Positions 38,779 through 39,991 of a stretch of DNA of 64,000 bases are shown here, piece after piece. Location: the NCBI GenBank assembly GCA_021234155.1, contig JAJEKV010000020.1:1002938-1066937 (forward strand), given 5' to 3'. The stretch comes from Isoetes taiwanensis (Eukaryota; Streptophyta; Lycopodiopsida; Isoetales; Isoetaceae). Made by a program: the position numbers and the translations under genes. The notes below the pieces were generated by a model. That model did no database searches. It saw only the letters and a list, made by a program, of their open reading frames with translations, and was not told the DNA's origin. The first letter of the stretch is position 1, and each line of letters starts with the position of its first letter.

Positions 38779-39991
38779 ATGGCTATTACCAAAGCTCGGA
38801 CCCGATCCACCATGAGCATCGTGGAGATCTACGCCATGATTGCTAAGCACATGGCCTCGACCCCGGCCTCATCGACATCTTGTTGGATGAGCTGGTCAAT
38901 AAATTTGAGAACAATGGCGGATTCCATATCCCGTCTATCACTTCGAGCCATTCCCTCATCAGGTGAACCCACGCCAGCTCCCCTACACCCTTGTTGAGCA
39001 ACTCCGACTGGTGATGATGCTCATCAAGTTTTATCCTCGAACAAGAAGGCCATGCGGGAGGAGGAAGATGTCAGGGAAGGCCCGAACCCGGATTAGGGAG
39101 TTTTGCCGGGGAAGGCGACCAGGGAGATTGAGCGGATCCGACACAGCAGCCCGGGGTAGGGAGTACCGTATTTCTGGAGACGGCTTTACCCGTCATCGAT
39201 GGCAACCATTGAGGTTCCCCATACCAATGGCATGAGGGTTCCAGCGGTTTTGTCCGGGGAGAAATCCCCTCGACATCAAAGATCGACTATCGACAACTAT
39301 TGAGATAGATATGGGTCTTCGGCCACAAGGTACCACGCCGAACTTAATCGCCGTACGCAGCCCAACTTTTGCTCAAATCCAAGAAGACTTAAGGCAAGCT
39401 CGGGAAAAGAGAGAAGTTGGAGCAAGAGGAGCGGGACCGACAAGATCAGCGGGACCAACAGGGGGAGGAGGTGCATCCGGGAGTGGCTCAACCCAAACCC
39501 ACGATCCGGATTGAAAGCTCAGAAGGAAGGAGTTGCTCATAAGGCCGGCAGTCAATACAAAGATAAGTTAAAGACTGTCGGGGCTTTTGGGAAGAAGACC
39601 AGCTCCGACCGGAGGCAGCAGAGAGTGGATAACTCCCGGCCGGTTGCTGGGGCTAAGACGGTGCCAACATCGTCGGGGCCTAGGCCACAGCGGAAGCCTC
39701 ATCGGTTCCGACCCGGTACCGTGGCATTGCGGGAGATCCGCAAATTTCAGAAGTCCACGGACCTTCGTCGATCGAAAAGCTGCCTTTTCGTGAGGTGGTA
39801 CGGAGATCGCGACGGCAATTTAAGACCGATCTCGTTTCCAGACCTTTTGCAATTTTGGCCCAAGAGGTGCTGAAGCCTACTTGGTAGCACTTTTTGGTGA
39901 TGCCAACCTTTGCGCTATCCACGCAAAGAGGGTCACCATAATGCCTAAGGATTTAGCCCTCGCCCGTAGGATACGGGGGGAGCAACCTTAG
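38779..39991 (+). pseudogene. retrotransposon-borne ORF ending in a histone H3 histone-fold domain
   Basis: From ATG 38,779 the text reads MAITKARTRSTMSIVEIYAM. Frames then shift repeatedly through acidic and charged helical text (PTFAQIQEDLRQAREKRE near 39,370). From 39,680 to the TAG at 39,989 it is unmistakably histone H3: RKPHRFRPGTVALREIRKFQ, then KLPFREVV, FKTDLVSRPFAILA, AEAYLVALFGDANL and CAIHAKRVTIMPKD, ending ARRIRGEQP. The alphaN helix, the histone fold and Cys110 equivalent are kept. The tail before it (TSSDRRQQRVDNS, PVAGAKTVPTSSGPRPQ) is unlike canonical ARTKQTARKS, so a variant of CENH3 type is possible. At least three single-base indels (about 39,765, 39,803 and 39,870) break the fold. 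AATAAA follows at 40,039. Whether this is one fused protein or two ORFs is unclear. Confidence 0.7.

Follow-up and report, generated by a model that had tools for sequence, protein, structure and literature searches.

A histone H3 domain encoded by a family of Ty3/gypsy LTR retrotransposons in Isoetes taiwanensis

Results

The 64,000-nucleotide stretch of Isoetes taiwanensis DNA analyzed here (the window, to which all positions refer) contains a Ty3/gypsy long terminal repeat (LTR) retrotransposon at 36459–49542 that carries a histone H3 domain, and the domain is not confined to this copy. It forms the C-terminal part of ORF-A, the first of two extra open reading frames (ORFs) situated ahead of gag. 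Among copies of the element in which the H3 is open, its core shows a ratio of nonsynonymous to synonymous substitution (dN/dS, omega) of 0.034.

The H3 domain was located by tblastn using a canonical H3 protein sequence as the query. This gave adjoining matches at 39646–39765, 39771–39860 and 39869–39985 in three different frames, with an E value of 6e-28. The Pfam Histone profile matches two of the three pieces, at E values of 2.8e-5 (24.8 bits, cut-off 26.4) and 1.7e-14, and a chance match was rejected on the basis of both searches. A preliminary description of this DNA had reported an H3 domain here, and all three of the strings that it quoted are present. Together with its stop codon the domain occupies 39646–39991 of the plus strand; since the pieces lie in three frames, the window copy requires at least two frame changes and cannot be read through otherwise. 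The start at 39533 that had been assigned to the domain suits only the frame of the C-terminal H3 piece. The ORF is longer, at about 38779–39991 of the plus strand, and consists of an element N-terminal domain followed by the H3. It is decayed, and its start was set by matching the MAITK of open copies of 409 residues.

The surrounding element is of the Ty3/gypsy type, as the reverse transcriptase (RT; RVT_1 at 44.3–44.9 kb) precedes the integrase (SH3_Tf2-1 at 46.5–47.1 kb). Its features lie on the plus strand. The 5' LTR (36459–38051, starting with TGTGACG) and the 3' LTR (47928–49542) were matched by self-BLAST with 92.6% identity including gaps; the pair differs by 42 substitutions and 73 gap positions, with a Kimura two-parameter (K2P) distance of 0.027. 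The outer LTR ends are inverted, TGTGACG...CGTCACA, and the target site duplication GCATT flanks the element on both sides (36454–36458 and 49543–49547), in agreement with the matching LTRs and duplication described earlier. A primer binding site, TGGTATCAGAGC (38054–38065), presumably matches the initiator tRNA-Met. The H3 lies after this site and ahead of gag, the position that had been proposed for it.

ORF-A is followed by an AT-rich spacer (39996–40160), apparent from the sequence and from copy comparison, and by ORF-B (40190–41600), which is decayed, has no Pfam domain and is open over 467 residues in copies L022 and L026. The gag region (41753–43570) was recognized by comparison with related elements and copies and has an acidic N-terminal part and a capsid-like part. 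The RT piece is situated at 44292–44903 (RVT_1, E value 2.1e-12). The integrase pieces cover 46111–47079; SH3_Tf2-1 (7.9e-22) and Integrase_p58_C (1.4e-7) match on 46516–47076, and the piece at 46111–46491 aligns to a related minus-strand element of the window. The integrase ends in a chromodomain-like stretch (47064–47168), where the translation shows a stop codon after the first half; the Pfam Chromo match is a weak half-domain match (E value 4.4e-4, 20.5 bits, cut-off 25.1).

The genome assembly (1,658,258,908 bases in 1110 contigs) was searched for other copies. With the H3 stretch as a DNA query, all 40 of the scored places, the best 40 of 1384 candidates, show at least 90% identity. Twenty of the 39 places other than the window were fetched with 10 kb each, and in all 20 the order is LTR (incomplete in some copies), leader, ORF-A, H3, spacer. 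ORF-B was likewise identified in every one of them, although incomplete in some copies and out of place in one, and within the 10-kb stretch gag was found in 16 copies and RT in 15. ORF-A is open from its ATG over 409 residues in five of these H3-selected copies, and ORF-B over 467 residues in two. The H3 (91.9–95.5% identity) and the RT (89.5–94.6%) are better conserved than the leader, the N-terminal part of ORF-A, ORF-B and gag (79–88%), the LTR (83–91%) and, mostly, the spacer (81–97%). Copies with the layout LTR, ORF-A (408–451 residues, H3 at its end), ORF-B and gag occur on many contigs.

A second sample was selected independently of the H3, as ranks 2–21 of a DNA search with the integrase (best 40 of 4913 candidates). 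The H3 is present in 18 of these 20 copies: two are in the H3 list, 15 have it in the fetched stretch, and in L046 it was identified by a row of the H3 protein search that sits between the leader and the integrase. In L042 and L045 the fetched stretch is displaced and the place of the H3 is not in view. No integrase-selected copy was shown to lack the H3, the place being visible in 18 of the 20, and the H3 is shared by other members of the family.

Among the best 150 of 9022 candidates from a search with the canonical H3 protein, there are 15 host H3 genes (96–98% identity) and 135 rows that were called element-like from their identity of 71–86% to canonical H3. The element-like rows are dispersed over 67 contigs, and 51 of the 135 have an open frame of at least 400 residues, two of these with a stop inside the match. 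Five contigs were inspected; in four of them element-like rows extend along most of the contig, and C1018 has four rows, at 19.4–27.3 Mb. The seven host genes that were fetched are ordinary H3s, one of them (L061) H3.3-like. Thirty of the element-like rows, picked so as to be widely distributed and in most cases for a long frame, form a protein-selected sample.

This sample includes the deep families L055 and L056, whose ORF-A is 44–45% identical to that of L026 overall and 31–36% identical in the N-terminal part. ORF-B (40% and 49% identity) and gag follow ORF-A in both. An RT of about 90% identity was found behind L056; the 6 kb obtained downstream of L055 showed none. The remaining divergent copies were fetched as ORF-A or the H3 stretch, and their element context is assumed. 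The possibility that the H3 is a separate nested insertion, raised in the preliminary description, is contradicted by its fixed position throughout the 20 H3-selected copies and by the same ORF order in L055 and L056, and a nested H3 retrocopy was rejected on these grounds.

Two further observations concern the accessory ORFs. In L084 and L056 the RT is about 90% identical while the N-terminal part of ORF-A is 36% identical; either the accessory ORFs outpace pol, or families recombine. ORF-B encodes a second accessory protein of 467 residues, 40–49% identical in the deep families.

Selection was analyzed on 43 copies with a naturally open H3, 13 of them DNA-selected and 30 protein-selected. 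The H3 core has 99 residues and no indels in all 43, and the same length in the seven host H3s. The omega of 0.034 was obtained with a codon model over the 99 codons of all 43 copies and becomes 0.046 after dropping the deep copies L055, L056 and L082; for the N-terminal part of ORF-A omega is 0.145 (15 copies). Pairwise estimates by the Nei-Gojobori method (NG86) over 903 pairs gave a dN/dS of 0.031–0.045 at dS 0.15–1.5 and of 0.08–0.10 at dS below 0.15, and the 328 pairs with dS 0.8–1.5 have a mean dN of 0.033. Over all open pairs, the changes at codon positions 1, 2 and 3 number 5963, 2132 and 28513. Within the window family, the shared variable sites are at codon position 3 in six of six cases, and sites of change seen once number 11, 5 and 3 at positions 3, 1 and 2. 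Purifying selection on the H3, for which a check had been proposed, is found in the family. When 22 decayed copies were compared with their nearest open copy, 62, 119 and 93 changes were counted at positions 1, 2 and 3, with no third-position excess, and there are 216 indel breaks against 274 substitutions. As judged from these substitution patterns, the replicating lineage retains the H3, and dead copies do not.

The kinship of the element H3 was determined with FastTree on 24 distinct element cores, 60 of 120 listed database H3s, four host H3s and six reference sequences. The element cores form one clade (support 0.948) beside plant H3, nearest to Arabidopsis H3.1 (0.465), host H3 (0.484) and Arabidopsis H3.3 (0.485). 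The CENH3s and CENP-A are far away (>2), with a mean tree distance of 2.49 for Arabidopsis CENH3 compared with 0.47 for H3.1. In a profile comparison with solved structures, the matches listed (60 of 177) are all H3, the best (8.8e-68) being an H3.3, and the Pfam Histone domain was found in 13 of 13 members of set A2. CENH3 has a longer loop 1 than H3. The suggestion that the domain is CENH3-like was rejected because of the 99-residue core in 43 of 43 copies, the position in the tree beside plant H3, and the structure list headed by H3. The substitutions T107A and I124L occur in all 43 open copies, and most of these also have S86T, S87F, V89I, G102A, E105G and a final proline. L055 keeps H87, as does the H3.3-like host gene L061. 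From this residue and from the H3.3 as best structure match we infer that the element H3 probably derives from a single ancient capture of an H3.3-like host gene.

Residues that contact DNA or form the H3-H3' contact were compared among the open copies. R49, R69, R72, R83, C110, H113, R116, T118, D123, L126 and R129 are unchanged in all 43 open copies, and R42, R63, K64, V117 and R128 are altered in one to three of them. The chaperone site in alpha-2 (residues 87–90) mostly reads FAIL where the canonical sequence is SAVL. The host tail ARTKQTARKSTGGK is not present in the ORF-A proteins inspected, and its position is taken by an element N region of about 310 residues. The noncanonical tail noticed earlier and the fusion with an element protein suggested at the same time are both supported, the protein being ORF-A of a chromodomain-type Ty3/gypsy element.

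The N region is predicted to be folded over residues 11–230, where all 22 ten-residue blocks have a mean predicted local distance difference test score (pLDDT) of 64–92. The predicted fold closes with a long helix and is followed by a variable linker and then by a basic stretch. The basic stretch contains the motif [AP][RH]K[AST]G in 36 of 43 open copies and a K27-like K[ST]xP in 41 (42 with GAKMVP). In the ORF-A tails of L009–L083, K9-like ARKS, AHKS or ARKT and K27-like AKTVP motifs recur. Such motifs are possibly remnants or mimics of the H3 tail marks.

Elsewhere in the window, a second, related chromovirus-like element lies on the minus strand at 4270–30982, with LTR-like repeats at 4270–5544 and 29821–30982, pol at 6.3–8.6 kb and a chromodomain match of 25.2 bits (cut-off 25.1). 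The tblastn search of the window gave no H3 match in this element. Upstream of its gag are ORFs of 520 residues (13170–14732) and 256 residues (11673–12443) with no Pfam match. An open ORF of 328 residues on the plus strand (19508–20494; DUF7869, E value 1.2e-36) is perhaps another mobile element within it. An exon-like stretch at 32064–32567 matches Na_sulph_symp (E value 1.6e-31) and belongs to a sodium/dicarboxylate transporter, as a host gene or a fragment of one; we take it to resemble the plant plastid dicarboxylate transporter. The sequence at 34054–35202 is pyrimidine-rich, with a GC skew of -0.46 over 34001–36000, and its long Phe/Ser/Pro ORFs look spurious.

Discussion

The element probably uses its own H3 to act on host chromatin. 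The best explanation as a whole, to which we give a probability of roughly 0.6, is that the sequences describe a captured, conserved and nucleosome-competent H3 that displays an element domain. A host H3 gene would have been captured once, long ago, by a clade of chromodomain-type Ty3/gypsy elements, in which it would since have formed the C-terminal part of ORF-A, their first protein. The same ORF order in deep families, the single H3 clade and the strong purifying selection together argue for an ancient capture that has been kept since. From the retained contact residues and the viral precedent of SAIL and TAIL motifs, ORF-A would be expected to pair with host H4 and to enter nucleosomes with its altered chaperone motif, mostly FAIL for SAVL. 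The N region of about 310 residues would then be shown outward as a giant tail and could be the element's own handle on chromatin. Its most likely role would be to tether the RNA-protein or integration complexes of the element to nucleosomes, alongside the integrase chromodomain. Nucleosome competence appears the firmer part of this explanation, and the tether would be one choice among several. We consider it possible, as a tentative extension, that hybrid nucleosomes of element H3 and host H4 carry an element domain that is read by the element's own integrase or Gag machinery, an address on chromatin of the element's own making that would serve insertion or expression.

Several observations weigh against a conserved, nucleosome-competent H3 with a displayed domain. 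No relative of the N region was found in a search of 5.8 billion proteins, to which repeat masking in annotations may contribute, and structure comparison gave no trusted fold match for it. Within the 13 DNA-selected copies of the window family omega is 0.218, on few changes. Among the 15 integrase-selected copies with the H3 in the fetched stretch, it is open in one; the other 14 and the window copy are frame-broken. The 30 protein-selected copies were picked for their resemblance to canonical H3 and, in most cases, for a long frame, which lowers the apparent dN. For a fungal DNA transposon, the authors considered the comparable H3-like gene to be possibly drifting, according to the available part of their report (PMC3538342). 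A choice based on protein favors conserved copies, yet it cannot produce saturated synonymous sites. The Isoetes assembly is described as based on Nanopore reads with Illumina polishing (PMC8566536, available in part); given such an assembly and the many small indels, some of the frame breaks may stem from errors of assembly, and the K2P distance of 0.027 between the LTRs may for this reason be too high.

A rather doubtful alternative is that the element escapes silencing by replacing host H3 over its own copies, so that marks such as K9 methylation are not normally deposited or read and expression persists. The missing host tail and its altered replacement, with [AP][RH]K[AST]G in 36 and K[ST]xP in 41 of 43 copies, would suit such a role. 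However, K9-like ARKS or AHKS survives in many families, contrary to a pure loss of marking, and a selected region of about 310 residues (omega 0.145) exceeds the need of a blank tail. Less likely still, ORF-A and new host H4 might bind the cDNA (or RNA) of the element within the particle or the pre-integration complex, chromatinizing it before or at integration. The DNA-contact residues are retained in nearly all open copies, and ORF-A, as the first ORF behind the leader, might be synthesized together with the particle proteins. Against this, there is no second histone in the pieces scanned with Pfam, which covered part of the frames, and we know of no such histone packaging for LTR elements.

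The capture of a CENH3 for centromere targeting is very unlikely. CRM-type chromoviruses target centromeres, but the Isoetes domain has the canonical core length and plant H3 kinship, and its copies are dispersed. The centromere strategy suggested in the preliminary description is accordingly left unsupported; the spread of element-like rows over 67 contigs weighs against it without being decisive. The least probable reading, a chance H3 retrocopy spread by copying as a functionless passenger, would fit the frame-broken copies and the fungal H3-like gene (H3L) that its authors read as possibly drifting (PMC3538342, available part), but judged from the coding sequences it is already contradicted by a dN/dS of 0.034 despite synonymous saturation between families, by the third-position excess, by the invariant contact residues and by the 51 of 135 element-like rows with frames of at least 400 residues (two with an internal stop).

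Chromoviruses read histone marks through their chromodomains, and an element that makes its own histone could write chromatin, not just read it. In Isoetes, strong selection has retained such a captured H3 in a retrotransposon lineage across deep divergence. For the Isoetes lineage this answers the question left by the available text of PMC3538342, whether selection keeps a captured H3. The family also offers a test case for site choice or silencing escape by an LTR element in a seed-free plant, in whose genome genes and repeats are reported to be evenly mixed (PMC8566536, available part).

The nearest known case is the H3L gene of a hAT DNA transposon in Pyrenophora tritici-repentis, present in 26 nearly identical copies and represented by expressed sequence tags, for which the available text leaves selection open (PMC3538342). 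In both systems a mobile element multiplies an H3-like gene with an altered tail that is neither a true H3 nor a CENH3. In Pyrenophora, however, H3L is a separate gene with recent, possibly drifting copies, whereas in Isoetes the H3 belongs to an ancient LTR clade, is fused to an element domain and evolves at a dN/dS of 0.034. The Isoetes element has LTRs, RT and integrase in place of the terminal inverted repeats of a hAT element. It resembles plant chromoviruses in its LTRs, 5-bp target site duplication, gag, RT and integrase with a chromodomain-like end, and differs from them by two extra ORFs between the primer binding site and gag, the first ending in H3. Additional ORFs have been reported for chromoviruses of seed-free plants, with no element-encoded histone in the available parts of those papers (PMC2864245, PMC3350952). 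The LTR elements of bdelloid rotifers likewise keep extra ORFs, which are of enzyme origin; unlike in Isoetes, no histone is mentioned in the available text (PMC5408684).

Single H3s are also encoded by Manila clam xenomavirus, Dishui Lake phycodnavirus and sylvanvirus, with fold domains 73–87% identical to host H3; they are thought to need host partners, and assembly through their SAIL or TAIL motif is expected with host help (PMC9145170, available part). The element H3 is similarly a lone H3 with an altered alpha-2 chaperone site (mostly FAIL in Isoetes), and the viral H3s sometimes have a longer, divergent N-terminal tail. They belong to DNA viruses, and their tails are longer by 35–68 residues, whereas Isoetes has an LTR retrotransposon with an N region of about 310 residues. 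The bracovirus H4 (CpBV/CvBV-H4), another core histone of captured origin, enters host nucleosomes and alters expression through its N-terminal tail; it differs in being an H4 encoded by a polydnavirus gene that acts in insects (PMC5423620, available part). The word retrotransposon is absent from the main text of the viral histone paper (PMC9145170), and neither PMC8566536 nor PMC10541799 uses the word histone in its main text. No retrotransposon-encoded histone was found in the open-licence literature, where exact-phrase searches are weak (they miss the Pyrenophora paper) and the broader searches were at title and abstract level. Within this literature, available in part, captured H3s have been described in DNA viruses and in a single fungal DNA transposon, and the H3 encoded by an LTR retrotransposon of Isoetes appears to be new.
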